Assembly (NCBI GenBank): GCA_002104895.1
Contig: MCFG01000169.1
Span: 21,001 to 85,000, forward strand
DNA length: 64,000 bases
From: Anaeromyces robustus
Taxonomy: Eukaryota > Neocallimastigomycota > Neocallimastigomycetes > Neocallimastigales > Neocallimastigaceae
Direction of reading: 5' to 3'
This document shows positions 878-61,024 of this stretch, piece by piece. Within the stretch, counting starts at the first letter, position 1. Each line of letters begins with the position of its first letter. The translations under genes and the position numbers were made by a program. Under the pieces are notes generated by a model that did not search any database, was not told where the DNA came from, and saw only the letters and a program-made list of their open reading frames with translations.

Positions 878-1545
878 GCGGGTTAATAAATTTAACTTTT
901 TTACTTTTCTAATTTATACAAAAAAAAAATTATAATAAATAATATAATTTAACCAAACGTTATATCATAAAAACAAAAAAAAAAAAATTACAAATTTTTA
1001 CTTATCTTAAACAAAACAAAACACATCTAAAATGAAAAACACACATATAATACAATACAAATACATTTTTTAATAAAGTGGATAAAAAAAAATAATAAAA
1101 AAAAAACAAGGACTGTCTTTAAAAGATAAATAAACTTTTAAAAGAATTGAAAGTCCTTTTATTATTTTTTCTAACACTTATATTTTTCTATTATCAAAAT
1201 AATAAAAACATATATTTAATATTTTTTTTAATCATTTAAAGTGCAATTTATATATAAAAACCATTAAAAAAAAAATTTTTTTTTAAATAAAAATTACAAT
1301 TTTATAAAATGTATATATAAAAAATATATTAAAAAAAAAATTAAAAAATAAAAAATTTAAAAAAAAATTAAAAATTTAATAAAAAAATTAAAAAAAAAAA
1401 AAAAAAAAATTAGGATTGTCTGTTCAAAAATTTATGAATTTTGTGTTTAATTTGGTATATATATATATTTTTTCCTAATGTTTTATCTTATGATTTATTC
1501 TATTCTAGCTATAATAGAATCTAAAACTTTTTGAATTTTGTGTTT
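878..1545. other. HSP90 3' flank, AT-rich, no gene seen
   Basis: Downstream of the HSP90 stop there is poly-A/T-rich sequence with no open frame of substance. The only visible structure is the inverted repeat near 1108-1158, listed separately. The right edge is where LINE-derived sequence begins. Confidence 0.6.
1108..1158. repeat. Short inverted repeat (hairpin) in the HSP90 3' flank
   Basis: AAGGACT at 1108-1114 is the exact complement of AGTCCTT at 1152-1158. Between them are two further self-complementary stretches (CTTTAAAAG and CTTTTAAAAG). It could be an mRNA 3'-end hairpin or a tiny MITE remnant; nothing in the sequence decides this. Confidence 0.45.
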
Positions 1546-1908
1546 TATTGATCACTTCTGATTTAGATAGAAATTTTTTTTATTTTTTAGATAGTCTTTT
1601 TAATAGTTTAGTTAGGACCAGTAATAACCCTAGTGTGGATAATAGAATAAATAATATTGTTAAGGGTTATAAAAGTAGTAATAATAGTATAAGTAATATA
1701 GATATATTAGGTAGTAAAAAAATAGTTAATAGGTATAGAATATATATTTTTTTAATTGGTGGTAGAGATTATGGTTTTAGTGATAGAATTAACAATAGTC
1801 CATACAAAAAGGAATGGGAATGTTTGTTTAAGTGTCAGACTGAATCTGGTACTTATTCAAAATCCCCATTCTTGTTGCGATCTGCGGCTCTATTGAATGA
1901 TATCATGC

Positions 1909-2528: not shown

Positions 2529-5500
2529 ATGGTACGAAATTTTTATAATAGTAACGAAAATAGCAATGTTTTTGTTCGTGGATTCCGCTGTTATGGAACT
2601 GATATTAACAACACTAGCATTATCTTCATCAATGGCCTTCACTCATGGACCAATGCATATATGATGGATTTTCTGGAATCAAATCTTAAGGAATTCAACA
2701 AGTACATTCTTTCAGTTAAACGATCTATGTGTTCTAGAGGTTGGTATTTTAGGATCAAAGTTTTATCATCTGACTTTAAATTCGATGATTTCAAAAAGAA
2801 ATTTGTATCATATATCTCAAATGCTAGCTTGTCGTATAGTAATTGCACTCATTATATTCGTAAAAGGTCACTTCAACAGATCAGAAATCAACTATTTTCT
2901 CCTTCAACAAACTTTAATGATTCAATTAATAACCAAAGTAATTCTACAACAAACTTAAATGATTCAATTAATAACCAAAGTAAGTCTACAACAAACTTAA
3001 ATGATTCAATCAATAACCAAAGAAATTCTACAACAAACTTAAATGATTCAATTAATAACCAAAGTAATTCTACTACAACATCCTCACAATCTAATACTTC
3101 AGATTCTTTCCAACGCAACTCATTAGTTAGTATACACTCTAATCTCAACACTCTTAATTCTATCAAAGATAAGTTTACTTTTTGTCTCAGTTGGAATACC
3201 AATGGATGGAACCACGAAAAGAAAGATAGTATCGAATACTTTATCACATTATTCAAACCTCTTTTTCTCTGTTTTCAAGAAACAAAGAACGGTTCTGGTG
3301 CCAATAGTAGTCAACCATGTAAAGTCACTATTCCCAATTACCGATATTTTGTTAGAAGAGCCGTTGATAGTATTCCAGGCATGAGAGGTTTATTTTTAGG
3401 TTATCATAAATCTTGTCAAGCAATACTTGAAGAGAATTCATTTAATTACATTATTTCCTTAACCAATTATAATATCTACGACTCTAAATGCTCTGTTGGA
3501 AATGTATATATCCCTGTCAGCTCTCATTCTACACAAGTGAAGTGTGCTTTAGCAGAAGTTATTGATTGGCTTAATATTCATCGTGATCATGCTTCTATTC
3601 TTGTTGGGGATTTTAACATGAAAACAGTGGACCTTGAAGAAAAAATATCACCGATTAATGGTTGGATAATTTTACCTCTCAATAGTTCAAGAATCTCTTG
3701 GGTTCAAGGTAATTTATCTTCAGATATTGATCATGCTTTGGTTAATTATAAAATGTTGAACCTTATATCTTATGCTTCCTTTATTGATTATCACCCAGTC
3801 TCTGATCATAAACCAATGTTAGTATATTGTAAGAAAAATTTTGTTGATCTCTCCTTTACTCACCCAAAAAAGGTTGTTCAATGGAATAGAATTCGCTGTA
3901 AGGAAATGAAAAACGATATTGTTGACAATAACAAGTTTGCTATTTTAAATAATGAGATCTTTAATAATCCTTCTCTTTCTATTGATGATCTAGTTGATAA
4001 GTTTATTAATACTTCTAATTCAATTGCAGAGGACCTTGAAATTACATCTTCTACTGAAATTAGGAAATCAATGTTCCATATGTCACGTAATATTTACTGT
4101 CTTCAAAGAATCAAAAGCTTGAAGTATCGACAAATTGAAAAGAGCCATTTGGATTATGAACCTAATCAATTTATTATCCTTGTTGCATCTTATAATAAAT
4201 TATGCCAATCTATTCATAAAAAATGTAATGAATTTAGAAGACAAAACTATTTATTTTGGATTAAAGTAGGCTGCGAGGCTACCTTAAAAAATGACAGCAG
4301 AAAATCATGGTCATGGATTAAGAAGAATATTAAAAATAACAATCAGGAGTTATTTATACCTCATCCTATCAGAGACCACCAAGATAACTTAGTGTATAGT
4401 ACTAAAGATCAATTAGATGTTTGGTGCAATTATTATAAGAAACTTAGTTATGACTCTACTGGACATAGCATGAATAAAAAATTCTGGAAGAATTCTCCCG
4501 CTATTAATCGTATAAAGAGTGGAAATAACATAGTATGGGATATTAACCAAGATATCAGCATTGAAGAAATCAAAAAGGCCATCCTTTCTATCCCTAACTT
4601 TAAAGCCTCAGGTCCCGATGGTATCCCTATTGAATTTTATAAAGCTTTAATTCCTGATTCCTCTTCGAATGACTCTGTAAATAATGATTCCTATGTTCCG
4701 GCTGGTCTTAGTTGTTTCTGTTTCTTAATTAATCGTATTTGGAATGGTGATTTTCCTATTTTTTGGAATAATGCATCCATTGTTTCTATTCCAAAAAAAG
4801 GCGATCTTTCTAATTGTGATAACTATCGTGGTATCTCACTTATCAATAATGGTATTAAGATTCTTTCGAAAATTATTGCTTCTAGAATTTCTGAATATGG
4901 TATAAGTCATGGATTCATCAGACCAGAACAATTTGGCTTTCGGAATAAGGAAGAATGTATTAGTCTTTATATCTCTATTCTTTCTATTTGTCAAAGACGT
5001 AAATTCAAAGGGGAAGATACTTATATAGCTTTTCTGGATCTTAAAAAAGCTTACGATTCTGTGCCCATATATAACATCTTGTCGAAAATTTATACTCTTG
5101 GTATACAAGGAAAATGCTTTCAATTTTTGGAGAACCTATATCTGTCTTCCAAAGCTTGTGTTAAAATTAATGGACAATTTTCCGATTCTTTCAGAATACT
5201 TAAAGGAGTTCGACAAGGATGTCCCTTATCTCCTATACTTTTTAATTTGTTTATCAACGACATCTTCAACGATTGCCTGCATAATGGTGTGAAAATAGAT
5301 ACTGAATATTGTTGTGGAGGATTATTTGCTGATGATATTGTTCTTTGTGCCCCTAGTAGATCTCGTATGAACAAACTTCTTCGTTTAGTTGGTAAATGGG
5401 CTAAGGACAACGAGATGACTTTTGGAATTAATAAATGTGGCACATTAGCTGTTAGACATGAAAATTCGGAATATATTCTTAGAGAGGACCCTACCTTTTA

Positions 5501-17594: not shown

Positions 17595-18085
17595 TAATAA
17601 TATGTAGCTATGATTATGGTTACTTCTAAAGGTTATTAATATTAAATCTTAAAAAAAATTAGTTTAATTGTTTTTTTTTATTTTATGTTTTTTATAAATT
17701 TACCATTAAATGTTCTGTAAATTATATGAATGAAAAGTTCATTTAATGTAATATTCAATATTTTGGTAATTACATTTCAAGTTATTTTTAATTTATAGCT
17801 TTTATAGCTATGTTAATAATTACTTCTAAATGTTATATAATAAAAAATAAAATAAAATTATAATGATATTATACGTTTATAATTTACTATAATACATTCT
17901 CTAAATTTCAAATAAAAAATTTTAAAAAAAAAACTATAAAATCAAAAATATTTAAATATTTTATTGATATTTTATTTTTTTTACATTTAATATATATAGT
18001 TACAATTATGATTACTTATAAAAAAATTATATATATAAACGTTGTTATGTTTTTATCATAACACATTCCATAGATTATATGTTGA
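17595..18085 (+). repeat. Dispersed hairpin-array repeat, partial copy A
   Basis: It holds the last three of the five stem-loop units described for copies B-E, in degenerate form. Unit starts (AGCTAT...TTACTTCT) are at 17606, 17806 and, much altered, near 18000. The first and last keep inner pairing (ATGGT with ACCAT; TTATGAT with ATCATAA). The left part of the repeat is missing. Confidence 0.6.
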
Positions 18086-22949: not shown

Positions 22950-24700
22950 AAAATATAAATAAATAATAATTTATAGTAAATTATTATTTTCATTAATTAA
23001 ATTGTTAAGTAGAAAAATAATATTTATGTAATTCTATTTACTATAATGTATTATAGTTTTTATTTTTTTTAAAAAAATATTTAAAGAGTAAAATTTAAGC
23101 AAAAAATATTATTTTATCAAAATTCATAATTTATAATTAGTATTGTAAAAATACTAATTAAAACTAGGAAAAAGCGAAGAAGATACAAAAAATAAAATAA
23201 TAAGCGACAGTTGAAGGCTTTGAAGATCTTCACTTTTAAGTAGAATAAATAAAAAAAATGAAAATATACATTTTCTTTAATTTATTTTACAACTAATCTA
23301 TAGCTAGAGTAAATAGTTACTTCTTATTCATAATATAAGCTTTAGTAAATAATTTGATTTAAATAAAAAAAACTTTAGTGAAGATCTTCACGTTTTTTAA
23401 TTAGTACTATTTCGTTCTATGGATTAGTTCCTTATTTTCCATTAATAACTATATAATAATCATAAATAATACAAATATTCCATTATTTAGTATTTTCTAT
23501 TTATAGAAAAAAAAATGGTACAATGACGTTCAAAAAATCTTATTAGAAGATATTCAATATATTCAATTCTTTTGTAACTACTTATTAATTTATTTATAAT
23601 ATACAGCTATAATAATAGTTACTTCTAAACTATTTTAAAATAACTATATAGTTTTAATAAAAATATTTTGCGTTAATAATTTTACTATTATAACTTCTCT
23701 AATATTATAAATAAAAAAAAGATGATTAGAAGACCAATTAACCAGGAAACTATTATTACACTAAATGAAATGGAAGAAAGAAAGATATAAAATCAACAAA
23801 AAGTATATATAAAAGAAAGTTGAAATTTTTAAAATGAATCCTTTTATATATAATATACAGCTATGATAATGGTTACTTCTAAAATATTTTTAATATTAAA
23901 ATTTTTAATATTAAATCTTAAAAAAAAATTAGTTCAATTTTTTTTTTTTAATTTACTTTTTTTTAATAAATTTACCATTAAAAGTTCAGTAGATTATATA
24001 AATGAAAAGTTCATTTAATATATTATTTAATATTTTGGTAACTACATTTCAATTTATTTTTAATTTATAGCTATGTTAATAGTTAATATCATTATAATAT
24101 AAAATTATAATGATATTCTGCGTTTATAATTTACTATTATACATTCTATAAATTTTAAATAAAATTTTTAAAAAAGGTCTTAAAATCAAAAAATGAAAAT
24201 GTTTAAATTTTTAATGATAATTTTTTTTTTACATTTAATCTATAGCTATGATTATGATTACTTCTAAAAATATTTTATAAGAAAAATTTTATATATAAAC
24301 GTTTTTATGTATTTATATAATAACATATTCTATAGATTATATGTAGAAAAGAAATTTAAGACCATTTAGAATGATTTATTAATAAATATAAGAGAATAAA
24401 TGAATAAATATCATGAAAATATTCTCTCATATTTATTAAATAATTTTAAATTACTATTAAACATTTTATAAATTTATAAGTACCTTTATTATATAATTTA
24501 AAAATCAAATTATTTAGTAAAGTATTTATATATACTTTAGAATATATATTTTTTATTTTTATTTAATTAAAAAAAAAAGTAAAAATAAAATAAAATGATA
24601 CTTTTTTACTAATAAATTCTTCATTAAATATTAATATTTTAATAATGAAGATTATTATTTTCTATATTTTTAGTTGAAATTAAATTTATAACTAAAAAAT
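22950..24700 (+). repeat. Dispersed hairpin-array repeat, copy B (complete)
   Basis: About 1.75 kb, similar along its length to copies C (39055), D (51965) and E (58915). It opens with AT-rich sequence and a conserved more complex stretch (AGGAAAAAGCGAAGAAGATAC, 23167 on, and the palindrome TGAAGATCTTCA at 23221-23232, again as GTGAAGATCTTCAC at 23378-23391). Five stem-loop units follow, with AGCTA(T)...TTACTTCT-type starts at 23302, 23605, 23859, 24069 (degenerate) and 24244. Unit 1 pairs 23291-23303 with 23417-23429 (one G-T pair) and AAATAGT with ACTATTT. Unit 5 pairs 24231-24245 with 24330-24344 at 14 of 15 positions. No ORF. Confidence 0.85.
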
Positions 24701-25132: not shown

Positions 25133-26513
25133 ACTTTATAAATTATTATTATTATTACATTATTTTTTTTTTTTTAATATCTATAAAAGCTTGTATAAAT
25201 TTGATATTTACTATAAATATTTATGTTAATGTAAATATATATATATATAAATTAATATATATAAATTATATATAATTAAAAAATTTTTTTTGTTTATAGT
25301 TGTAATGTTGTTATTATTATTACAATAAATAATAGCTTTTATATTAAAGTATATAATTAATTTGTAATCTTTTATATCTTGAAATTATTTTTTTTTCTTA
25401 AAGTGAATAATATAAAATATCAGAAGAATTATATTATTTTTTTTTAATTTGCTTTATTATATGAACTTTTAACAATATATATTATTAAAAAATAAAAAAA
25501 AATATGTATAATGATAGGAATTCACGAATAAGATTTTTCTGTTTTTTATTCAATAATAATTGTATTTTCTGAGGTTATGTTTTAATTTCTTAGGTACTAT
25601 ATAAAGTAAAATAAAATACAACACCAAATATATAATACATCCTTATTGAAATTATTCTTAACCAAAATTATAAAGGATACATATCAAATATTAATACTTT
25701 ATACATATTAATAGTTTAAGAAAGTTTTAATAAAGCATTTATATATAGTTTAAATATAGAATTAAATATAATTTTATTAAAAAAATTTTATTTAATGATT
25801 AATTTGCTTATTTGGTATGCAATTTAATTAATTTATTACAAAAACTTTATTAAATACAAGTTTTTTAATAAAATTATTTTTATGCTTATTCGAAATTTAA
25901 CTGAATTTTTATTTTTCTTAAATTAATTTCTTATGTAGTATTAATTTAATACTATGCCTCAATTTATGAATTAACAAAAAAATTTATTATAAAAACAACA
26001 AAAAGTTTTTCGAAAGTTCAACTTCATCAATATTTTTTTTATTATTAATTTACTATTAATTCAATAATATTTTATTTTTTATTAATTAATTAATAATTTA
26101 ATTATAAAACTGAATTTAATATTAATATTATAACAAAAATTTAATACATTCTAACTGCATATAAATGTAATTTTATTAATTATTTTATTCTTACCTTATT
26201 ATTATTAGTTATAATTATTTATTTATTTATTTATATTTTATTGCTTTCTTGTTTTCTATTTATTCATTTTATTTATTTGTTTATTTATTTTTATTTATTT
26301 ATTTTTATTTATTTATTTATATATTTATTTTTATTTATTTATTTATTTTTATTTATTTATTTATTTATTTTTATTTATTTATAATTTATTTATTATTTAT
26401 TTGTTTTTTATATTATTTACTTATTTTTTATTTTTTTTCTTTAATTTATATATATATATATATATTTCTTTTTTACATTTTTATATTAGCAATTTTAAAC
26501 ATTTATTATTAAT
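25133..26513. other. AT-rich spacer upstream of the vWA gene, with TTTA microsatellite
   Basis: No gene seen. 26217-26440 is a TTTA/TTTTTA microsatellite whose apparent ORF is low-complexity. A TA run (26449-26465) precedes the start of the vWA gene. Confidence 0.6.
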
Positions 26514-29500
26514 ATGATCGATAATAAAGATATAGTTTTATATCCTTATCAAAAAGGACATATTGCTGAATTAAATGTTGAAGAATCAATTGAAGGAAAT
26601 AATTCAAATTATGAATTAATTTTGATTATTGATAGGTCAGGTTCAATGAGCTATAGTTATCCAATTCTTATTAAAAAATTAATTCCACAGCTTTTAGATT
26701 TATTAAGATTCCCAGAAAATAAAGCAATTCATTTTATAGCTTTTGAAGATTTTGTAGAATACAGAAAATTTACAAAAAAAGATTTCATGAATTGTTCAGA
26801 ATCAGCTACTGGTGCTATTGAAAAAATGACTGATGTTTTTCCACACCTTGAAAAAATTTTTATTCCAGAAAATCAAAAAACTCCTTTTAGAATACTTACA
26901 CTATCTGATGGTCAATTGGTAGTTGCAGAAGAAAGAAGAAATGTTCCTATATTAGCATCTAAGTTTTATGAAAAAGTAAAAGGTAAATTCAGAATTAATT
27001 CACAAGCAATTAGATACTTTACTTCATGTTCCCAGCCTGATACAATGGCTCTGGCTTCAATTTTACAATTGAATACTATAAATGAAGCAACATTAATTGA
27101 TATTAGTTCTAAAGATTCATATATTGAATCAGCCAAAAAAATATGCGAATTATTTAAAAATGATGGATTTGATTTAGATTTAAAAATAAAATCAAATAAG
27201 GAATGCATTAAGGTAGCTCCTTGGGTTGATGTAAAAAATGAAGTTGCATTATATACTGGAAAAAATATTTTTTGGATTGAAAATTTCGATGAAAAGACTG
27301 AATTTATTATTAAAATAGGAGATGAAGAAATAAAAATGAATATAAAATATGGAGAAGAATTAACAATTTTAAACTATTCCGGAATTTTATCTACAAAAAT
27401 ATCTGAATTTATGAATAAATTAAAAATTTTAAGACTTATTAATGGTTCAAATGCTGAAAAAGAAATTGATTTAATTATTCAACAATTTAAGAAATTTGAA
27501 GATAGTTTAATAGTAACTCAAGAAGATGAAGAAATAATTTTAAAAGATGGAAAATTAGCTTCAAGACTCGTATTTTTAAGAAAATTAATTAATAAAAGAA
27601 AAGGTCTGATTTCAAATCAAATGGATATGATTAAAAATGAGAACCGATTATCACAATTAAATAGTCAACAAAAAGCAGATTATTTAAGAAATGTTGATAA
27701 TACAAAATTAGGAAAAGGACTTGCAAGAAGAGCATTAAATAATGAAGGAGATGTAGATGAAGTTATTTATAGAGAAATCGAACAAATATCAAATCATATA
27801 GATGAATTAAAAGATATTGATTATTCAAAGCATCCTTCTAGTTTTTATTCATTTTCGACTACCATTGAATCACTTGAAGAATTATGCGCCTTATATAAAG
27901 ATCCAATTTTTAAAGAATTAGAAATTACAGATATTTTAAAATTTTTTAACATTGTCGGTGTTGCTTGTAATGGAAATATTGGAGATTATCCTGACCCTTC
28001 TATTTACTTGATTAATAGAATATATCCAGGATGTTATATTAGTATCAGTGATATTGCTACTGCAGAAGAATATTCAAAGGGAAATGACCATTTATGTGAT
28101 CCAGGTACTAAAGGAATCATTAATAATTGTATTCCAGTATTTAATGATGAAAAATTGTATAGTTTTTTGAAAAAATATTCTCCAAGAATGTTAGAATTGT
28201 CAGCAGGTATTGGAATGAGAAGAGTACTTGCCGATATTCCTTTAACTTTTGAATCTACTATTTTGTCAGGATTATGGAGAACTATTAATGTTTTAAAAGA
28301 TGTTAAAAGTGAAATAAATATAAATGTATTTAAGAATATATCTGATACCATGAAATTAGTATGTGGAAAAAAATATAATGGTGTAATTGAAATAGTAAAA
28401 GGTCAATTAAAAAGCAAGAGTAATAAAAATGCATTATATATTAATAGTTATAGTCTATTTCAAATGTTACCTGTAATTTATAATTGTGCCTCAGATAAAC
28501 TTTTGGATGCGAACGAATTAAGTAATATTTATCGAGCTATTACAAGGTATGAAATATATAAAATAATAAGAACAAGAATTAGAAAATCAGGCGATAAATT
28601 GGATTATGTAAAAGAAAGCTTAAAAAAGATATTAGGTATAAATACTGAAAAATATGCAACAAAATTACCTGAACTATTTGAAAAAATAGAAAAACCAAAA
28701 TTTTTTGACAACTACTTTTTAGATAAAAATATCATTAATAATTATAAAAAATTGATAGGTTGGACTGAAACAATTCCATATAGTTATATGTTATTTTCTA
28801 AACTATTTGAACCAAATTATATTGAAAGCATTAAAAACCTTAAATATGAATTTTCAAAAGAATATCTTGGAATTAATTATGATTATGACAAATTTATTGC
28901 ATTTAATATTGTCCAGTCTTTAGTATTTAACGAAAAAAGTGAAAGGGATGATGACTATAAAAAAATCATGAAAATTATTGACTCTAACAGAGAAGAAGAA
29001 GTAGATTATTTCTTAAAAGAGCAAACAAAAAAAATATATGAAGAGGATTATAAAAATAGATATTCCAATCAAATGAAAGAAGAAGAAAAAATAGTAATAG
29101 ATGAATTAATTGATAAAATAATTTCATGTGAAGAAATATCTGAATTTAAAAATTTAATGAAAAACGGAATAACAAAGGGATATTTAAACTATAAATTTTT
29201 GAATGAATCTTCCAATGGATATTTTGAATTAAAAAATAAATTTTTAGATGAAAAATTAGATATTCCTTTAAGATATGAAAAATTATATATGATGTTAATG
29301 GGAAAAGATGAAGATGAACAAATTATTTGGAATAATGGAAATGGAATAAGAAGTGGTATGATGGATTATAAAGAATTTATTTTAAAACATAATCCATCTA
29401 CTTGGGAGGAATTTAAAAAACATAAAAAATTTTATGTATATAGGGATAAATATAATAGACATGGCCATTCTAATTCTAAAGTTTCATTCTGGGCAATGGG

Positions 29501-29603
29501 ATATAAATCTTTACAAGAATTTATTGAAAATTCAAGCGAAGAAGAAGTTAGGGAATATAAAAAGATTCATTATAATTGCTGTGGATTTGGAAGTTGGAAA
29601 TGA
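26514..29603 (+). CDS. Large von Willebrand factor A-domain protein, function unknown
   Basis: 1029 residues without introns; no signal peptide or membrane segment seen, so probably intracellular. The vWA domain lies at about 33-230, with a complete metal-ion-dependent adhesion site: DRSGS (D40, S42, S44), T99 and the SDG Asp (D132). The rest has no motif I recognise. It includes a Lys/Glu-rich helical stretch (about 330-430), a central block with ELSAGIGMRRVLADIPL, and a C-terminal half rich in Asn, Lys and Ile ending ...YNCCGFGSWK. The ATG at 26514 is the first in frame and is followed at once by coding composition. vWA domains usually mediate metal-dependent protein binding. The gene sits alone between CotH genes 2 and 3; its codon use is AT-rich. 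Family and origin are undetermined. Confidence 0.85.
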   Translation: MIDNKDIVLYPYQKGHIAELNVEESIEGNNSNYELILIIDRSGSMSYSYPILIKKLIPQLLDLLRFPENKAIHFIAFEDFVEYRKFTKKDFMNCSESATGAIEKMTDVFPHLEKIFIPENQKTPFRILTLSDGQLVVAEERRNVPILASKFYEKVKGKFRINSQAIRYFTSCSQPDTMALASILQLNTINEATLIDISSKDSYIESAKKICELFKNDGFDLDLKIKSNKECIKVAPWVDVKNEVALYTGKNIFWIENFDEKTEFIIKIGDEEIKMNIKYGEELTILNYSGILSTKISEFMNKLKILRLINGSNAEKEIDLIIQQFKKFEDSLIVTQEDEEIILKDGKLASRLVFLRKLINKRKGLISNQMDMIKNENRLSQLNSQQKADYLRNVDNTKLGKGLARRALNNEGDVDEVIYREIEQISNHIDELKDIDYSKHPSSFYSFSTTIESLEELCALYKDPIFKELEITDILKFFNIVGVACNGNIGDYPDPSIYLINRIYPGCYISISDIATAEEYSKGNDHLCDPGTKGIINNCIPVFNDEKLYSFLKKYSPRMLELSAGIGMRRVLADIPLTFESTILSGLWRTINVLKDVKSEININVFKNISDTMKLVCGKKYNGVIEIVKGQLKSKSNKNALYINSYSLFQMLPVIYNCASDKLLDANELSNIYRAITRYEIYKIIRTRIRKSGDKLDYVKESLKKILGINTEKYATKLPELFEKIEKPKFFDNYFLDKNIINNYKKLIGWTETIPYSYMLFSKLFEPNYIESIKNLKYEFSKEYLGINYDYDKFIAFNIVQSLVFNEKSERDDDYKKIMKIIDSNREEEVDYFLKEQTKKIYEEDYKNRYSNQMKEEEKIVIDELIDKIISCEEISEFKNLMKNGITKGYLNYKFLNESSNGYFELKNKFLDEKLDIPLRYEKLYMMLMGKDEDEQIIWNNGNGIRSGMMDYKEFILKHNPSTWEEFKKHKKFYVYRDKYNRHGHSNSKVSFWAMGYKSLQEFIENSSEEEVREYKKIHYNCCGFGSWK

Positions 29604-35267: not shown

Positions 35268-36095
35268 TTAATATTTTTTGAATTTTTTACCTTTAGCTCC
35301 ATGATCTTCTAAATGTTTTATTATACTATCATCAATTATTTTTGGTCTATTTCTGCCACCATAACGCTTATAAGTTTCATTACATCTTGCCATGGTTAAT
35401 GGTGTATCATTATAAATATTTTTCATATTTACATCTGCTCTATGCTCCACTAAATACTTTACTATATTAAAATTTCTATAATAGCAAGAAATAATTAATG
35501 GAGTACCACCAATATTATCTTTTATATTGATTTCTGCTCCATGTTTCACTAAATATTGTACTGTATCAAAATTTCCACATAAACATGCATAGTTTAATGG
35601 AGTAGTACCATATCTTTCCTCCTTTTGTTAGCATTCTTTCCGAGCTGCACTAAACATCTCACAATATTTGTATTATATGATACAGTTAAATGTGCCCCAT
35701 GGTCCACTAAATATTTTACTATATTAATATTATCATTATTACATGCTATTAATAATGGGAAATTATCATATTTATTTTTCATATTAATATCGGCGCCATG
35801 ATCAACTAAATATTTCATTAATTCTTCATTATTTTTCTTACAAGCTATGAGTAATGGTGTATTTCCGTTTTTATCTTCAATGTTTATTTCAAATCCTTTT
35901 TCCACTATAAGTTTTATCAATTTCATATTACCTTTTTCACATTCCTTTATAAATGGGATTTCACCATTTTTAAGTGGTACATTCGTATATGCTCCACATT
36001 GAATTAAATATTCTATTATTTCAATATTATTTTTATTATAGGCCGTATTGAATGAAATATCACCATTTTTGGTTTTAAAATTGATATCTGCCCAA
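35268..36095 (-). pseudogene. Frame-broken 3' part of the ankyrin-repeat gene
   Basis: Downstream of the stop at 36075, ankyrin repeats continue in other frames. From about 36095 down to 35594 one frame reads GADINFKTKNGDISFN..., EIPFIKECEKGN, NTPLLIACKKNNEELMKYLVDHGADINMKN and further repeats to a stop at 35594. After a second shift near 35600-35640, another frame reads GTTPLNYACLCGNFDTVQYLVKHGAEINIKD... to 35268. About seven repeats are recognisable. The first break looks like a deletion inside a repeat (KYLL then directly GRYQF, where the repeat pattern calls for DHGADIN). Either the gene is decaying or the assembly has errors here. Confidence 0.75.
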
Positions 36096-38474
36096 TAAAT
36101 ATTTTATTATTTCAAAATTTTCATATTTACACGCTAAAATTAATGGTGTTTCATTATTTTCATTTACTACATTCACTTCTGCACCATGATCTACTAAATA
36201 TTTAATTACATCGATATCATTATAATTACATGCATAAATTAATGGTGTACTACCAGAATAATTTTTCATGTTAACATCTGCTCCATTATCTACTAAACAC
36301 TTAACTATATCAATATTCTGACACGCTTCATATAATACTGTTTTATAATAACAGCTTTCTATATTTACTAAAATATCTGCTCCTTTATTAATCAGATATT
36401 TTAGTAAATTTAAATTACCTTTTTTACATACTATAAATAATGGGGTTTCAAAATTTTTAATTCTTATATTAATATCTGCTCCATGATCCACTAAATATTT
36501 TATTAATTCTTCATTTTCATTTGAACACATAATGGATAATGGTGAATTATAATTTTTATCCTTTACATTAATATCTGCACCATTTTCTATTAAATACTTT
36601 ATTAATTCATCATTTTTATTATTACATGCAACTATCAACGGAGAATCCCTAGTATATTTGCTTACTGCATTAATATATGCTCCCTTATTAACCAAATATT
36701 TTACAATATCGTTCTGATTTATATTACAAGCAGTGATTAATGCCAAATCACTACCCTCAGAGTTTATACATAATCCATGATCTATTAAATATTTTGCCAT
36801 AGTAATATTTTTATTTTTACATAATATTTCTAATAGAGTACTTAAACTTTTATTTATATCTGCTCCTTGATATACTAAATATTTTATTATATTATCATTA
36901 TTTTGCTTACACGCTTCTATTAGAGGTGTATTCCAAGAGGTATCTCTTAGATTAGGATTTGCTCCGTGATCTACTAAATATTTTATTAACTTTTCATTAT
37001 TCATTCTACATGCTACTGTTAGAGGTGTATTCTCATAGTCTCTTACGTTAAGATTTGCTCCGTGGTCTACTAAGTATTTTACTAACTTTTCATTATCCAC
37101 TTTACATGCTTCAATTAATGGTTTCATACTACGATCATCCATTTTCATATTGATATCCATTCCATGATTTATTAAATAACTTATTAAATTCTCATTTCCA
37201 CTCTTACATGCTAACATTACCACTGTTTTATCTTGTGCTCCATGTTCTACTAAACATCTAAATATTTTATCATTTTTATCATTATACGCTTTAAGTAAAA
37301 GGCTCTTACCATTTTTGTCTTTTACATTAACATCTGCTCCGAGTTTTATTAACAATTTTGTTAAATCTTCTTTTCCATCATTATATGCCATTAATAATAT
37401 TGTATCACCTTGATTATTTCTTTTTTCTGTATCCATTCCTCCAAGAATTAAATACTCTATTAATTTTTTATATTCTTTTTTATAAGCAATATAAAGTGGA
37501 GTTTCATTATATTTATTTTTTATATTTATATCTGCTCCATGATAAATTAAATATTTTATTAAATCTTCATTTTGATTTTTACATGCTATAAGAAACGGTG
37601 TATCACCTTTTTTATCTTTTACATTTATTTGTGCTCCCTGTCTCACTAAGTATTTTGCTAATTTATAATTATTTTGTTTACAAGAAATAATTAATGCTGT
37701 ATCCCCATTTTTGTTCTGTTCATTTATTTTCGCTCCATGATAAATTAAATATTTTATTAAATCTTCATTTCGATTTTTACATGCTATAAGAAACGGTGTA
37801 TTACCTTTTTTATCTTTTACATTTATTTGTGCTCCATAATAAAATAAATATTTTATTAAATCTTCGTTTTGATTTTTACATGCTATAAGAAACGGTGTAT
37901 CACCTTTTTTATTTTTTACATTTATTTTTGCTCCTTGACTCATTAAATATTTTACTAATTTATATTTATTATTTTTACAAGAAATAAATAATGCTGTATC
38001 CCCCTTTTTGTTCTGTTCATTTATTTTCGCTCCATTTTCAACTAAAAATTCAACAATATTTTCATTAGAATATTCACACGCTATAATTATTGGCATATTA
38101 CCATTTTCACTTGTTAAATTGATATCTGCACCATAAAGAATTAATAATTTAACAATATTTATATTATTTTTATAGCAAGCATTACTTATGGGTGTACTGA
38201 CATTCCCACTACCATTTTTTCTAAAATTAATTAAAATTGGGTTTCCTTGAATTTTGGTAACTATAATGTTTAATTCTTTATTTGAAACTTTTTTTTTATT
38301 TTTACGAAATAAAAGTAATTTTAATATTATGTCATTAATTGAAGTATAAGTATAAAAAAAAATATTCAACAATTTTTCATTATTATCGTTACATAATTGA
38401 TAAACGACATCTTGTAATCTACTTATATTATTTTCTTTAATTAATTCATTAATTTGTTTTTCATTAATTTTCAT
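36075..38474 (-). CDS. Large ankyrin-repeat protein (about 22 repeats)
   Basis: 799 residues: an N-terminal ~85-residue region (MKINEKQINELIKENNISRLQDVV...) without known motif, then about 22 ankyrin repeats of ~33 residues with the usual TPL(I)xACxxxNxxLIKYLVxHGADIN pattern. Ankyrin repeats are protein-binding scaffolds; no catalytic or membrane segment is seen. Repeats 4, 5 and 7 share TPFLIACKN(Q/R)NEDLIKYL almost exactly, also in DNA, so part of the array was duplicated recently. The start ATG (complement of 38472-38474) is followed directly by coding composition. The gene runs opposite to all CotH genes. Its stop follows an apparent frame-breaking deletion, so the original protein was probably ~230 residues longer. 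Confidence 0.85.
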   Translation of the reverse strand: MKINEKQINELIKENNISRLQDVVYQLCNDNNEKLLNIFFYTYTSINDIILKLLLFRKNKKKVSNKELNIIVTKIQGNPILINFRKNGSGNVSTPISNACYKNNINIVKLLILYGADINLTSENGNMPIIIACEYSNENIVEFLVENGAKINEQNKKGDTALFISCKNNKYKLVKYLMSQGAKINVKNKKGDTPFLIACKNQNEDLIKYLFYYGAQINVKDKKGNTPFLIACKNRNEDLIKYLIYHGAKINEQNKNGDTALIISCKQNNYKLAKYLVRQGAQINVKDKKGDTPFLIACKNQNEDLIKYLIYHGADINIKNKYNETPLYIAYKKEYKKLIEYLILGGMDTEKRNNQGDTILLMAYNDGKEDLTKLLIKLGADVNVKDKNGKSLLLKAYNDKNDKIFRCLVEHGAQDKTVVMLACKSGNENLISYLINHGMDINMKMDDRSMKPLIEACKVDNEKLVKYLVDHGANLNVRDYENTPLTVACRMNNEKLIKYLVDHGANPNLRDTSWNTPLIEACKQNNDNIIKYLVYQGADINKSLSTLLEILCKNKNITMAKYLIDHGLCINSEGSDLALITACNINQNDIVKYLVNKGAYINAVSKYTRDSPLIVACNNKNDELIKYLIENGADINVKDKNYNSPLSIMCSNENEELIKYLVDHGADINIRIKNFETPLFIVCKKGNLNLLKYLINKGADILVNIESCYYKTVLYEACQNIDIVKCLVDNGADVNMKNYSGSTPLIYACNYNDIDVIKYLVDHGAEVNVVNENNETPLILACKYENFEIIKYLLGRYQF

Positions 38475-38709
38475 ATTTTTATTCTTTTAAAATATAAAAT
38501 AGTATTCCCTATTTTTTAATGTTCTAAAAATCGTTACTTCCTTTGAATTATTTATTATAATTCAAATAACATCATTACTAATTTTAATTAAAATTATTTT
38601 TGAAAAAAAAATAAAAAAAAAAAAAAAATAAATAAATAAATAACAAAGTTTTTTGTATAAAATTTTACAGCAATATATTAAAAGAGTGAAACAATTTATT
38701 TATTTTCTT

Positions 38710-39054: not shown

Positions 39055-40951
39055 AAAAATTTACATTAATATAATATATTTACAGAATATTAGAATATTC
39101 TAAATATTTTGTTAAAATTTTAAGTGGTTGGGCAAGAAAAATAAACTTAAAAAATATTTAAAATAAATATTTTTTATGTAATAGTAATTAATATTATTTA
39201 TTATTTTTCAACTTAACAATTTAGTTAATAGTAAATGAAAAATAAGTAGGAAAATAATATTTATATAATCGTATTTACTAAAATGTATTATAGTTTTTAT
39301 TTTTTTAAAAAAGTATTTAAGGAGTAAAATTTAATCGAAATATTTTTTTTTCAAAGTTCATAATTTATAATTAACATAATAAAAAATGTTAATTAAAATT
39401 AGGAAAAAACGAAGAAGATACAAAGAATAAAAACAATAAACAACAATGGAAAGCTTTGAAGATCTTCACTTTTAAGTAGAATAAATAAAAAAAATGAAAC
39501 ATCTACATTTTTTTTTGATTTATTTTACAACTAATCTACAGCTATAGTAATTAGTTACTTCTTAATAATCATATAAGCTTTAGGTAATTCGATTTAAGAA
39601 AAAAAAAAACTTTAGTGAGGATCTTCATTTTTTTTTTAATTAGTACTATTACTTATTTTGTGGATTAGTTCTTTATTTTCCATTAATAACCATGAATAAC
39701 CATAAAATAATCATAAATAATAAAAATATTCAATAATTTCCATTTATGGAGAAAAATGGTATAGTAATGTTCAAATAGTCTTATTGAAAGATATTCAATA
39801 TTATGTTCAATACTTTTGTAGCTACTTATTAACTTTATTTATAATATACAGCTATAATAATAGTTACTTCTAAACCATTTTAAAATAATTAATATTTATA
39901 TTTTGCGTTTATAACTTTACTATATATAAATTCTGTAATATTATAAAAAAAAAAAAAAAGATGATTAGAAGATCAATTAATCAGAAAACTATTATTACAC
40001 TAAATGAAATGAAATGGAAAAAAAAAGAAAGATAAAAATCAACAAAAAGTATATATCAAAAACATTAAAATTTTTAAAATGAATCCTTTTATATATATAA
40101 TATACAGCTATGATAAATGGTTACTTCTAAAATATTTTTAACATCAAATCTTAATAAATTAGTTTAATTTTACGTTTTCTAAAATAAATCTACCATTATA
40201 TATTCTGTAGATTATATAAATGAAAGGTTCATTTCATACAATATTTAATATTTTGATAACTACATTTCAATTTATTTTTAATTTATAGCTATGTTAATAG
40301 TTACTTCTAAATAATATACAATAATAATATAAAAAAAATTATAATGATTTTCTACGTTTTTTTTTTTAAATTTACTATTATACATTCTATAAATTTTAAA
40401 TAAAAAATTTTTAAAAAAGACCATAAAATCAAAAAATGTTTAAATTTTTTATTGATAAATTTTTTTTCTTTTCTATATAGCTATGGTTATGATTACTTCT
40501 AAAAATATTCTATAAAAAATTTTTTTTATATATAAACGGTTTTGTATATTTATATCATAACAAATTCTATGGATTATATGTAGAAAAGAAATTTAGACCA
40601 TTTAGAATGATTTATTAATAAATATAAGAGAATAAATGAAACAAATATTAATTATTCTTTTATAATTATTAGTTAATTTACATTACTATTAAACATTATT
40701 TAAATTTATAAGTACCTTTGTTATATAATTTAAAAATTCAAATTATTTAATAAAGTATTTATATACTACATGAAAATATATATATATATATGTTTAATTT
40801 TTAATATTATTTAAAAAGAATTAAAAAATAATAAATTAACTAATATAATTCGTTCTTATTATTAAAAAGTTATTCATTAAATGTTTATACATTATTAAAA
40901 AAAATTTTTTTATCATATAAATTTTTAGCTGAAATTAAAACTTTTAACCAA

Positions 40952-41999: not shown

Positions 42000-42473
42000 A
42001 ACAAAAATAAAAAAAAAAAATAAAAAAAAATTATCAATTATAAATTAATTTTTTTTAATTACTTTTGAATTAATATTATTGTATTATTTTTAATTAAATA
42101 TTAAGCATTTGTTAACAAGATTGTTTATTATTGAATAAATTAGGATATAATAATATATCTCTTATTCATTAAAAAAAATTAAAGTATTGTGTTTATTTAT
42201 TATAAAAAATAATTATACTAATATTTAAAAAAAAATCATAAAAATATCAAATTTTATTTATTACATATATATCAATATATATATATATATTGATATTTTT
42301 ATTATCATTATTGTTTTTACTATTATTACTATTATTATTATTAAAATTTTTATTATTATTATTATTATTAAAGGAAATATATCATATTTTCCATCAATAA
42401 AGTTCTATATTTCATAAAAAAAATAATTAATTTCATTAACACTTGAAGTTCATTTATTATTTTTCACAACTTT

Positions 42474-42753
42474 TTCAATAATTTTTAATAGGATTATAAG
42501 AAGGTAAAATTTAGTAGTTGTATTAGTATTTCAATAATTTTTAATAGGATTATAAGAAGGTAAAATTTAGTAGTTGTATTAGTATTTCAATAATTTTTAA
42601 TAGGATTATAAGAAGGTAAAATTTAGTAGTTGTATTAGTATTTCAATAATTTTTAATAGGATTATAAGAAGGTAAAATTTAGTAGTTGTATTAGTATTTC
42701 AATAATTTTTAATAGGATTATAAGAAGGTAAAATTTAGTAGTTGTATTAGTAT
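42474..42753. repeat. 56-bp minisatellite, 5 identical copies
   Basis: Five copies, identical by eye, of a 56-bp unit (TTCAATAATTTTTAATAGG...AAGAAGGTAAAATTTAGTAG...). The corresponding site before gene 5 (about 47368-47423) has a single diverged copy, so the amplification is local and recent. Confidence 0.95.
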
Positions 42754-43024
42754 TAAGTAGTATTAATAATAGTTAATAGTGGTTATAGAGTTGTAGTACT
42801 TGTACTAATAGTAGTAGTTGGATTAGCTTTATTGTTAGTATTAATACTAAATATAGTTTTGTGATAATTAAAGTATCTACAATTATTAATTCTGTAGAAG
42901 TATTAATTAGTAAGTTATATTGCATCGTTTTTTTTTTTTTTTTTTTTTAGTAATACATATTAAGCAATTATATAAAAGAAAATTTAATGGAACAATATAT
43001 ATATATATTTATAAAAAAACAATT

Positions 43025-46142: not shown

Positions 46143-46600
46143 ATTATTTTTACCTTTTTTAATTTGAATAAAAAATTAAAATTAAAAAAAAAAAATGAAA
46201 AAATAGAAATTAAAATAAAAAAAATATAAATATAAAACAAAAATAAAAAAGAATAATCTTTTTAATAAAATTTAAAACAATTAAATTTTAACACAATTAT
46301 ATATTTATACAAATAAATTAAAAAAAGTAAAATAATTTGAATAACAAAAGCAAAAAAACAAAAAAAAAAAAGTGTAATATAATTATACATATATAATAGT
46401 AATATGAAAAAGTATATAAAAATTTTTAATATATTATTAATTATGTTACAACTTTATATTATTATATTAAAAAAAAATAATTAATTCTTAAAGAAATATA
46501 TAATGAAAAAAAAAATATTACTAAAATAATTTCATATAAATATAATTGAAATCAAATATATATTTTAAAACGTATTAAAAAAATACATTTTCAAATATAT
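46143..46600. other. 3' flank of CotH gene 4
   Basis: Shared CotH downstream block (ATTTTTACCTTTTTTAATTTGAAT, CAATTATATATTTATACAAATAAATT, GTAATATGAAAAAG). No gene. Confidence 0.55.
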
Positions 46601-50970: not shown

Positions 50971-51964
50971 ATAATTTTTACTTTTTTTTTTAATCTGAGA
51001 TAAAAATTTAAGAAAAAAAAAAAAAAAAGAAATTAAAAATAAAAAAAAAAATATAAATATAAAACAAAGAATAAAAAAAGAATAATCTTTTTTAGTATAA
51101 TTTAAAACAAATACATATATTACACAAAAAAAAATTAAAAAAAAAAGAGTAAAATAATTTGAATAATAAAAGCAAGAAACAAAAAAAGAAAGTATAAGAT
51201 ATACTTTTTTTTTTTTTTATTTATGAAAATTAATAATTTAAATATAATTATTATTATATATATATAAAAGTAATATGAAAAAATTATAAAAAAATTTTTT
51301 TAATGTATTATTAATTACATTATAAATTTCTATTATTATATTATAAAAATATAATATAATATACATATTTTATATAAATATTATAAAATTACTTAATATA
51401 AAATATAATTGAAATCAAATATATATATTTTAAAATGTAAAAAAAAAAAAATACATTTTAATATAAATATTAGTTAAATGATTTTAATTATTAAAAATAT
51501 ACATATCAATTATTTTTATTATTATAATATTTAGTAATAAAAATATTTTTATAAGAAAATATAAATATAAAATGTAAAAAAACAATGGAATAAAATCTTT
51601 ATAGAAATTAAGCAAACATCAAGTAAAAAAAAAAAAATTGTAAATTAAACAAACATCAAATAAAAAAAAAATTAGAAATTAAGCAAACATCAAATAAAAA
51701 AAAAATTATAAATTAAGCAAACATCAAATAAAAAAAATATATATATTATAAATTAATTTTTTTTTTAATTACTTTTGAATTAATATTATTGTATTATTAT
51801 ATTATTTCTAACTAAATATTAAACATTTATTAACAAGAATGTTTATTATTGAAAAGATTAGGATATAATAACATAGCTCATATTTAATTAAAAAAAAAAA
51901 TTAAGATATTATTTTTTTTGTATCTATTTATCACAAAAAAAAAAAATATCATATAAATAATAAA
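50971..51964. other. 3' flank of CotH gene 5, with its own ~35-bp tandem repeat
   Basis: Shared downstream block, then at about 51605-51735 four units of ~33-37 bp containing AATTAAGCAAACATCAAATA plus poly(A). They lie at the position where the blocks before genes 4 and 5 carry the 55-bp minisatellite. The end has AACAAGAATGTTTATTATTGAAAAGATTAGG. No gene. Confidence 0.6.
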
Positions 51965-53975
51965 ATTTTAACTTTAGTATATAGAATATTAGAATATTCT
52001 AAATATTTAGTAATGTTAATGTAAAAATTGTGTATATAATTAATAAAAATAATAAAAATATCAATATATATAATAAATAAATTTTGAAATTTTTTAAGTG
52101 TGGTACAGCAAGAAAATATATACTTAAAAAATATTTATTTTAAATATTTAGATTAACTTTGTTATTTTTATGTAATAGTAATTAATATTATTTATTATTT
52201 TTCTACTTAACAATTTAATTAATAGTAAATGAAAATTAAGTAGAAAAATAATATTTATATAATCGTATCTAAAAAAATGTGTTAATATAGTTTTTTTTTT
52301 TTTTTAAAAAAGTATTTAAGGAGTAAAATTTAATCGAAAAAAATTTTTTTCAAAGTTCATAATTTATAATTAACATAATAAAAAATGTTAATTAAAATTA
52401 GGAAAAAGCGAAGAAGATACAAAGAATAAAAACAATAAAAAAAAAACAATGGAAAGCTTTGAAGATCTTCACTTTTAAGTAGAATAAATAAGAAAAAATG
52501 AAACATTTACATTTTTTTTTTGATTTATTTTACAACTAATCTACAGCTATAGTAAATAGTTACTTCTTAAAAAATTATAAAAGCTTATAGTAATGATATG
52601 AAAAATAAACTTTAGTGAGGATCTTCATTTTTTTTTTAATTAGTACTATTTACTCGTTCTGTAGATTAGTTCCTTATTTTTCCATTTAATAACCATCATG
52701 AATAACCATAAATAATCATAAATCATAAAAATATTCCATCAATATTTTCCATTTATGGAGAAAAATGGTACGGTGACGTTCAAAAAAATCTTATTGGAAG
52801 ATATTCAATATGTTCAATACTTTTGTAGCAACTTATTAATTTTATTTATAATATATACAGCTATAATAATAGTTACTTCTAAACCATTTTAAAATAATTA
52901 ATAATTATATTTTGCGTTTATAACTTTTACTATTATAAATTCTGTAATATTATAAATAAAAAAAAGATGATTAGAAGATCAATTAATCAGAAAACTATTA
53001 TTACACTAAATGAAATGAAATGGAAAAAAAAGAAAGATAAAAATCAACAAAAAGTATATATCAAAAACATTAAAATTTTTAAAATGAATTCTTTTATATA
53101 TATAATATACAGCTATGATAAATGGTTACTTCTAAAATATTTTTAACAACAAATCTTAATAAATTAGTTTAATTTTACGTTTTCTAAAACAAATCTACCA
53201 TTATATATTCTGTAGATTATATAAATGAAAGGTTCATTTCATACAATATTTAATATTTTGATAACTACATTTCAATTTATTTTTAATTTATAGCTATGTT
53301 AATAGTTACTTCTAAATAATAAACAATAATACAAAAAATTATAATGGTGTTCTACGTTTTTTTTTTAAATTTACTATTACAGATTCTATAAATTTTAAAT
53401 AAAAAATTTTTAAAAAAGACCATAAAATCAAAAAATGTTTAAATTTTTTATTGATATTTTTTTTTTCTTTTTTATATTTAATCTATAGCTATGATTATGA
53501 TTACTTCTAAAAATATTCTATAAAAAAATTTTTTTATATATAAACGGTATTGTATATTTATATCATAACAAATTCTATGGATTATATATAGAAAAGAAAT
53601 TTAGACCATTTAAAATGATTTATTAATAAATATAAGAGAATAAATGGAACAAATATCATGAAATTATTCTTTTATAATTATTAGTTAATTTACATTACTA
53701 TTAAACATTTTTTAAATTTATAAGTATCTTTATTATATAATTTAAAAATTCAAATTATTTAATAAGTATTTATATACTACAAAAAAAAAGAATATATATA
53801 TATATATATATATATTTAATTTTTAATGTTATTTAAAAAAAAATTAAAAATAATAAAGAATAATATGATACGTTCTTATTATTAAAACAATTTATTCAAT
53901 AATAATACTATATAAAAAAATGGTTTTAATTTTAAAAATTTTTAGCTGAAATTAAAAACTTTTAACCAAAAATAT
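51965..53975 (+). repeat. Dispersed hairpin-array repeat, copy D (complete)
   Basis: The clearest copy. Five units: (1) AACTAATCTACAG 52534-52546 with CTGTAGATTAGTT 52659-52671, inner AGTAAATAGT 52551-52560 with ACTATTTACT 52645-52654, both perfect; (2) outer 52845-52860 with 52942-52956, inner 52865-52873 with 52929-52937; (3) outer 53101-53112 with 53210-53222, inner AATGGT 53121-53126 with ACCATT 53198-53203; (4) AATTTATAG 53285-53293 with CTATAAATT 53386-53394, inner TAATAGT with ACTATTA 53373-53379; (5) 53473-53488 with 53575-53589, inner TTATGAT 53495-53501 with ATCATAA 53562-53568. CTAT follows each left outer arm and TACTTCT follows each left inner arm. No ORF. Confidence 0.9.
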
Positions 53976-59175: not shown

Positions 59176-61024
59176 ATTATTTTTTTGCTTAACAATTTAA
59201 TTAATATTACATAAAAAAATAAATAGAAAAATAATTTTTTTTTCTGTAATTTTATTTATTAAATGAAAATATTATAATAATAAAGTTTTTATTTATTTAT
59301 TTATTCTTTTTTTCTTTAAAAAAAAAAAAAAAAAAAAAAGTATTTAAAGAGTAAAATTTAATCCAAAAAATAAAAAAAATTGTTTTTTCCTCAAAGTTCA
59401 TAATTTATAATTAGCATTATAAGATGTTAATTAGAATTAGGAAAAAGCGAAGAAGATACAAAGAATAAAAAACAATAAAAAAAAAAAAAAAACAATGGAA
59501 AGCTTTGAAGATCTTCACTTTTAAGTAGAATAAATAAGAAAAAATGAAACATTTACATTTTTTTTTTGATTTATTTTACAACTAATCTACAGCTATAGTA
59601 AATAGTCACTTCTTAAAAAAATAATAAAAGCTTATAGTAATGATATGAAAAATAAACTTTAGTGAGGATCTTCATTTTTTTTTTTTTAATTAGTACTATT
59701 TACTCGTTCTGTAGATTAGTTCCTTATTTTTCCATTTAATAACCATGAATAACCATGAATAACCATGAATAACCATAAAATAATCATAAATAATTAAAAT
59801 ATTCCATCAATATTTTCCATTTATGAAGAAAAATGGTACAGTGACGTTCAAATAGGCTTATTGGAAGATATTCAATATAATGTTCAATACTTCTTGTAGC
59901 AACTTATTAATTTTATTTATAATATATACAGCTATAATAATAGTTACTTCTAAACCATTTTAAAATAATTAATAATTGTGTTTTGCGTTTTACAACTTTT
60001 ACTATTATAAATTCTGTAATATTATAAATAAAAAAAAAAAAGATGATTGGAAGACCAATTAACCAGGAAATTATTATTACACTAAATGAAATGAAGTGGA
60101 AAAAAAGAAAGATAATTAGAAGACCAATTATCCAGGAAATTATTATTACACTAAATGAAATGAAATGGAAAAAAAAAAAAGATAATTAGAAGACCAACTA
60201 ACCAGGAAATTGTTATTACACTAAATGAAATGAAATGAAAATGAAAAAAAAAAAAATCAACAAAAAACATATATTATAAAATATTGAAATTTTTAAAAAA
60301 AAAATGAATCCTTTTATATATATAATATACAGCTATGATAAATGGTTACTTCTAAAAATATTTTTTTTAATATCAATTCAATTAAAATAAATTAGGTTCA
60401 TTTTACGTTTTTTTAAAAAATCTACCATTATATATTCTGTAGATTATATAAATGAAAGGTTCATTTCATTTAAATATTCAATATTTTGGTAACTAACATT
60501 TCAAAAAAAATTTTTTTTTTTTTAATTTATAGCTATGTTAATAGTTACTTCTAAATAAAAATATACAATTATATAAAATAAATTATAATGGTGTTCTACG
60601 TTTTTTTAAAAATTTACTATTACAGATTCTATAAATTTTAAATAAAAAAATTTTTTTAAAACAGACCATAAAATCAAAAAAATGTTTATTGATAATTTTT
60701 TTCTTTTTTTTTATATTTAATCTATAGCTATGGTTATGATTACTTCTAAAAATATTCTATAAAAAATTTTTTTTTATATATAAACGGTATTGTATATTTA
60801 TATCATAACAAATTCTATAGATTATATGTATAAAAGAAATTTAGACCATTTAAAATGATTTATTAATAAATATAAGAGAATAAATGAATAAATATTATGA
60901 AATTATTCTTTTATATTTATTAAATAATTTTTACTGATTAAACATTTTTTTTTAAATTTATAAGTACCTTTATTAAATAATTTAAAAATTCAAATTATTT
61001 AATAAAGTATTATTTATATACTAT

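Follow-up and report, generated by a model that had tools for sequence, protein, structure and literature searches.

Multi-hairpin arrays whose stems change in matching pairs suggest a so far undescribed structured non-coding RNA in the anaerobic gut fungus Anaeromyces robustus. The window analysed here, a stretch of 64,000 nucleotides (C78:21001-85000, from an assembly of 70 Mb in 769 contigs), is very AT-rich in base composition and holds 23 copies of the hairpin in five arrays (A to E); a further 21 copies are spread outside the window over five more contigs of this genome, both sets being matches of a covariance model, R1. The layout common to the units is P1, CTAT, P2, TACTTCT, a variable loop, P2', approximately 5 nt and P1', with the outer helix P1 usually closed by CAG/CTG. 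The CTAT motif is present in 36, and TACTTCT in 35, of 40 units compared.

Each array contains two to five hairpins, and arrays A to E align with a sixth copy, on contig C12, with identical unit types in an identical order; array A has kept units 3 to 5 and lost units 1 and 2. The preliminary description had presented copy D as five stem-loop units, which is borne out by the model matches at 52537-53590 (Table 1), and had put the number of units at about 23; there are exactly 23 in the window, among the 44 matches of model R1. Unit D1 pairs over 13 contiguous outer and 10 inner base pairs, as claimed, and the inner arms given for unit 3 (AATGGT/ACCATT) and unit 5 (TTATGAT/ATCATAA) are correct. 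The outer arms require amendment: those of unit 1 (CTACAG/CTGTAG) stand, whereas the left arm of unit 3, for which the same arms had been given, reads ATACAG, so that the outer helix of D3 comprises only 5 contiguous base pairs, and unit 4, given as CTATAG/CTATAA, reads AATTTATAG/CTATAAATT. In a comparison of copies B, C, D, E and C12, each of the five unit types shows higher conservation in its arms than in its loop, by a narrow margin in unit 5 (left arm 0.88-0.97, right arm 0.84-0.95, loop 0.60-0.87). Units A4, A5, B4, K5 (in the C12 copy) and those of contig C344 are weak or decaying. The left arm of K5 (locus L018 of C12, minus strand, approximately 4555-4670) reads CCACAG CTAC GATTACGAT and differs from that of D5 by four changes, all T to C, with two pairs broken. 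In array E, a stretch of approximately 85-90 bp (GATGATTGGAAGACCAATTAACCAGG...) is tripled between units 2 and 3 (60034-60260); the same stretch is single in B, C, D and C12.

Table 1. Hairpin units and accompanying elements of the arrays in the window (positions are those of the window)
Feature	Positions	Strand	Basis
Unit A3	17598..17730	+	model R1, 52.2 bits
Unit A4	17798..17914	+	model R1, 66.6 bits
Unit A5 (decaying)	17990..18083	+	model R1, 48.1 bits
TATA-like element, array B, one mismatch	23073..23086	+	motif search, alignment
Unit B1	23294..23432	+	model R1, 47.5 bits
Unit B2	23597..23712	+	model R1, 58.7 bits
Unit B3	23851..24002	+	model R1, 39.1 bits
Unit B4 (TACTTCT lost)	24061..24161	+	model R1, 58.3 bits
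Unit B5	24236..24345	+	model R1, 68.5 bits
TATA-like element, array C	39309..39322	+	exact match
Unit C1	39532..39673	+	model R1, 51.3 bits
Unit C2	39842..39948	+	model R1, 60.3 bits
Unit C3	40098..40220	+	model R1, 77.1 bits
Unit C4	40279..40402	+	model R1, 65.3 bits
Unit C5	40471..40582	+	model R1, 68.7 bits
TATA-like element, array D (AAAAGTATTTAAGG)	52308..52321	+	exact match; 237 nt before AGCTAT of unit 1
Proposed transcribed stretch, array D	52335..53790	+	ends inferred from conservation
Leader hairpin AATTAACAT/ATGTTAATT, array D	52373..52398	+	alignment of copies, by eye
Unit D1	52537..52674	+	model R1, 65.5 bits
Unit D2	52851..52957	+	model R1, 64.3 bits
Unit D3	53103..53225	+	model R1, 79.7 bits
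Unit D4	53284..53401	+	model R1, 74.6 bits
Unit D5	53479..53590	+	model R1, 77.1 bits
TATA-like element, array E	59336..59349	+	exact match
Unit E1	59583..59724	+	model R1, 58.9 bits
Unit E2	59922..60029	+	model R1, 65.8 bits
Unit E3	60323..60452	+	model R1, 67.7 bits
Unit E4	60523..60644	+	model R1, 74.4 bits
Unit E5	60718..60830	+	model R1, 78 bits

Pattern searches led to diverged relatives on contigs C365 (two arrays, one of them ended by the contig end), C434, C344 and C752. All matches of two such searches (18 and 31, respectively) fall inside arrays; another search gave 27 matches, with non-units at three places, namely C78:114593 and C313:34344, which are coding-like by eye, and C19:81645, where the best model score is 10.5 bits. 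No solitary unit was found among the pattern matches examined individually. The helices of the relatives have letters unlike those of the window: P1 is CTGCAG/CTGCAG and CCACAG/CTGTGG on C365, TCACAG/CTGTGA on C434 and TCAACAG/CTGTTGA on C752, and P2, which is TAGT/ACTA, TGGT/ACCA or TGAT/ATCA in the window, is CAGT/ACTG on C752. The C752 arrays are five repeats, approximately 2.2-2.5 kb apart and 97-100% identical over 560 bases, each of which carries a second unit start; in an unconstrained fold of one such second unit, the order is P1, CTAA, P2, TACTTCT, a large branched loop, P2', ATGTT and P1'. When the C752 and C434 arrays were used as DNA queries, the similarities beyond the known places were short and weak and were taken for low complexity. 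The members of the family are known from one genome only. In the C365 and C434 units (loci L055 and L056), ATAAGT is seen by eye closely 3' of the right arm of P1.

Model R1 was trained on 22 units, out of 34 full ones known at that stage, with C752 and C344 outside the training set. Over 137 kb from 15 sources, it gave 44 matches with E values of at most 5, every one at a place where a unit was expected (23 in the window, 5 each on C12, C365 and C752, 4 on C344 and 2 on C434), with recovery of 23 of 23 window units and also of the untrained relatives on C752 (E of approximately 4e-7) and C344 (E from 0.001 to 0.5). As a control, 84 viral and prokaryotic loci that contain the left motif by chance (2 + 2 + 80 listed of 120 pattern matches) yielded 7 matches within the same limit of E 5, of which the best had E 0.28 and 28.9 bits.

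The window carries a series of CotH-like genes, one of which, when scanned, showed CotH and CBM_10 domains, and the arrays of the window probably multiplied by riding in tandem duplications with these genes. No CotH-like match lies within 9.9 kb of the C12 copy, so that the link of the window arrays to CotH is probably a case of hitch-hiking. An ankyrin-repeat gene is located at 35594-38486, before array C, and ankyrin-like remnants are recognizable by eye near the arrays of C365 (L055, approximately 1500-1740, minus strand) and C752 (L066). Elsewhere in the window, a 56-bp tandem unit is present in five perfect copies (42473-42754), and a 1034-codon open frame (26499-29603) has no Pfam match at E 0.001; by eye, its start resembles a von Willebrand A domain.

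The preliminary description had held that the pairing exceeds chance, and this assertion withstands comparison with shuffled, slid-partner and tree-aware controls. Over 22 units, again taken from those 34, and 12 pairs, 90.9% of the cells pair, and the covariation score is 0.381, compared to 0.198 in shuffles (0 of 500) and at most 0.151 in controls with slid partners. In the same set, neither the pairs changed on both sides (8 vs 5.9 in shuffles; 42 of 500) nor the further pair types (12 vs 13.0; 445 of 500) stand out. When the window is excluded and nine units from contigs C365, C434, C344 and C752 are scored by themselves, the value is 0.403 vs 0.156 (0 of 500 shuffles), with 6 of 12 pairs changed on both sides (13 of 500) and 373 of 500 for further pair types.

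Because kinship alone can lift sequences above shuffles without any structure, a tree-aware null was built, in which each simulated column matched the real one in its commonest base and parsimony count, the count being allowed to differ by one change where suitable columns were few. It was applied to 32 distinct arm sets and 13 pairs, from 40 units; omitted were the C365 unit ended by the contig, two degenerate C344 units, one of the five copies on C752 and the second, very long-looped unit of the repeats there, and unit C344_1, with a P1 that is probably misplaced, was retained. The score of 0.357 exceeds this null (mean 0.126, sd 0.034, largest of 1000 simulations 0.256), the tree of which is, as a weakness of the test, derived from the same arms. 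Thus, the covariation signal that was to be sought in the aligned units lies above the phylogenetic null. The cells changed on both sides (49 vs 10.6 in the null, largest 32) and the paired fraction (0.877 vs 0.742, largest 0.827) likewise surpass it, and 5 of the 13 pairs singly reach p below 0.05. Single hairpins are often not unusually stable: a folding z below -1.5 on the plus strand is found in 20 of 38 distinct hairpins (from the 40 units), and 7 of 39 units have only 1-2 contiguous P1 pairs beside the closing end. The case for structure therefore rests on covariation and recurrence, not on energy.

A TATA-like element, AAAAGTATWWAARR, with the aligned core AAAAAAGTATWTAARRAGT.AAAA, is found upstream of approximately 12 arrays: B (with one mismatch), C, D, E, C12, the two of C365, C434 and the five of C752. 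It lies on the strand of the array, 229-487 nt before the AGCTAT of the first unit. Three of the four exact matches in the window precede arrays C, D and E; the fourth, at 46408, follows a CotH gene at 44577, has no array behind it and possibly marks a lost one. Array A has no such motif; on C344, the 1.3 kb that precede the first unit contain none at fewer than 2 mismatches, and matches with one mismatch are not above chance in the window (23 vs 18.7 in shuffles). The identity among copies is only 0.682 in the block 52305-52345, because of gaps around the motif. The weight of this putative promoter element, judged from sequence, comes from its repeated presence in comparable positions ahead of arrays with leaders that can no longer be aligned. 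Two loci on C634, where the longest frames are 111 and 82 codons, also carry it, and our guess is that it is a general promoter element of A. robustus.

Among the five copies, identity is 0.864 in the leader (52346-52537 in D) and 0.849 in the stretch 53583-53790, and falls outside the array to 0.611 before 52300 and 0.453 after 53790. The hairpin in the leader of D (Table 1) reads AATTAGTAT/ATACTAATT in copy B. The arrays are assigned to the plus strand because of the upstream motif alone. The minus strand folds better in 27 of the 38 hairpins (mean z of -2.00 vs -1.66), perhaps due to the G's of AGAAGTA, and G-U cells number 9 vs 6 A-C cells in the 40 units; wobble pairs and energies thus leave the strand undecided, with energy slightly favouring minus.

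We infer from these sequence features that the arrays are transcribed from the plus strand and act as RNA, and that processing takes place. A family of promoter-driven non-coding transcription units, with the hairpins serving as bound modules or excised small RNAs, is the reading that we consider fairly probable. The suggestion of a polycistronic array of structured non-coding RNAs thus gains partial support, from covariation beyond the tree-aware null, the diverged relatives on C365, C434, C344 and C752, and the TATA-like element upstream of most arrays. Transcription of most arrays would start behind this element, on the plus strand, and proceed through a leader of some 200-450 nt into two to five copies of one hairpin. 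In each copy, the letters of P1 would drift with pairing kept, an unpaired CUAU would face approximately 5 free nucleotides, and beyond the inner helix P2 a conserved unpaired UACUUCU would open the variable loop. Two unpaired motifs held by drifting helices are the usual sign of a recognition element, and P1 and P2 would present CUAU and UACUUCU to one protein. An RNase III-type enzyme would cut the hairpins from the precursor as stable RNAs of approximately 80-145 nt, and the number of hairpins per transcript, together with the number of arrays, would set the dose; that dose matters is suggested by the presence of several modules in each array and by the local amplification (C78 and C752 with five arrays each, C365 with two). 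The hairpins are probably bound and excised, excision being the weakest step. For the mechanism as a whole, with one protein reading both motifs, excision by an RNase III-type enzyme and dose set by copy number, the chances seem to us somewhat below even.

The evidence does not tell excision apart from one long non-coding RNA in which the repeated hairpins remain uncut, as binding modules that act together on one transcript in the manner of the A-repeats of Xist or of roX RNA. Two to five modules behind one upstream element, and a leader and a stretch after unit 5 that are as conserved as the units, are compatible with such an uncut RNA, which we nevertheless regard as unlikely, given that the modules differ freely in number, spacing and loops.

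Less likely still are microRNA-like precursors, in which Dicer would cut the P1-P2 duplex and Argonaute would take a left-arm strand of 20-24 nt. The polycistronic precursors of fungal milRNAs and plant-type miRNAs have arms over 20 nt and variable loops and occur in clusters, all of which applies to the units. Moreover, the left arm is the more constant strand, and the same genome encodes Argonaute (a Piwi match on C178) and Dicer-like RNase III genes (two RNase III matches each on C216, C405 and C765, one of the latter across 8 stops). For four Neocallimastigomycota genomes, Dicer and Argonaute have been reported, but not a clear RdRP (PMC5796279). Such precursors would, however, leave unexplained the 4 x 5 internal loop that is kept in the middle of the duplex and the conserved, unpaired TACTTCT outside the helix. 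A miRNA family has a fixed seed, whereas the middle of the left arm varies here.

The preliminary description had named related terminal-inverted-repeat elements as the alternative. That the units are such elements (MITEs), or palindromes of DNA that arm-to-arm conversion maintains, now appears very improbable, even though AT-rich inverted repeats are common here, the wobble pairs do not resolve the strand and the C12 copy adjoins a LINE-like fragment and has a left border inverted relative to D. The inverted border (51940-51975 of the window vs 3695-3740 of reversed L018) is a short AT-rich stretch. Arm conversion would tend to complement CTAT, but the facing loop complements it in none of the 40 units, and of four possible pairs with it can form one at most; the mismatch itself is thus kept, which sits poorly with inverted repeats that are preserved as DNA. 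The unit order shared by the arrays, the upstream element on one strand and the absence of solitary units among the pattern matches examined individually also speak against mobile elements. Clean target-site duplications had been proposed as a refutation of the RNA reading; in 39 of the 40 units, they are not consistently found beside the terminal repeats, with one of 7 nt, of A/T-only sequence, and the others of 0-3 nt.

A protein-coding signature (TAT AGC TAT GAT TAT GAT TAC TTC TAA, or YSYDYDYF-stop) has next to no probability. It is true that several units, B5 and D5 among them, stay open in this frame up to the stop, and that between units 2 and 3 all five copies have a frame that begins with MI(R/G)R(S/P)INQ and, in D, reaches 59 codons, above the 95% point (55) of base-shuffled sequence. 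However, units 1 and 3 of most copies have one extra base, and the MI.R.INQ frame varies in length (59 codons in D, 24 in C, 22 in B, 48 in E and 33 in C12) and is taken as non-coding, not as disproved. No long reading frame is common to the copies, and the covariation of the right arm would be left unexplained.

Searches against known RNA families gave no match in the window or in L055, L056, L061, L066 and L018 at the curated scores of Rfam 15; a permissive search yielded one match in array D (RnaG, 20.9 bits vs a cut-off of 153) and none in L055 6000-7100, L056, L066 and L067, and ARAGORN with bacterial settings predicted no tRNA or tmRNA gene in the window and five loci. Box H/ACA snoRNAs, which are often polycistronic, share with the units the stem, internal loop, stem anatomy; in contrast to them, the units have no Rfam match and no regular H or ACA box by eye, and their internal loop is small and constant and thus offers no guide pocket. 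Y RNAs and nematode stem-bulge RNAs likewise consist of two helices around a conserved internal loop; the units differ from these in the lack of an Rfam match, the other conserved letters and the tandem arrays. In the open-access literature on small, micro and non-coding RNA of anaerobic gut fungi, which are important fibre degraders of the herbivore gut, we found no structured RNA family of these organisms. From a covarying, locally amplified family that probably has a promoter, transcripts, the ends of hairpins and binding motifs can be predicted. The arrays also show that selected RNA structure can reside in AT-rich intergenic DNA, which is easily dismissed as noise.

The nearest known system in logic is that of the dictyostelid Class I RNAs, which have an 11-nt motif beside a 6-bp end stem and one DUSE approximately 60 nt from each start (PMC7919456). 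By analogy with that account, the fungal units may be said to work like Class I RNAs: in both, a short end stem drifts with pairing kept, a motif lies by the 5' side of the stem, the interior is variable, and intergenic clusters are accompanied by an upstream promoter element (PMC7919456). The fungal hairpins are, however, larger, have CTAT and TACTTCT as motifs and a second helix between these, several of them follow one element at a distance of 229-487 nt, and the host is a fungus, whereas that of Class I RNAs is an amoeba (PMC7919456). With other motifs, a second helix and a distant element, in a comparison made by eye and with no Class I model, the units are not counted as members of the class. 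It is at best a tentative proposition, and a rather doubtful one, that anaerobic gut fungi have in these units a hitherto undescribed class of hairpin RNAs bound by protein, with multi-hairpin precursors, promoters of their own and tandem amplification, which would be a counterpart of the dictyostelid Class I RNAs in its logic but would not share their descent.
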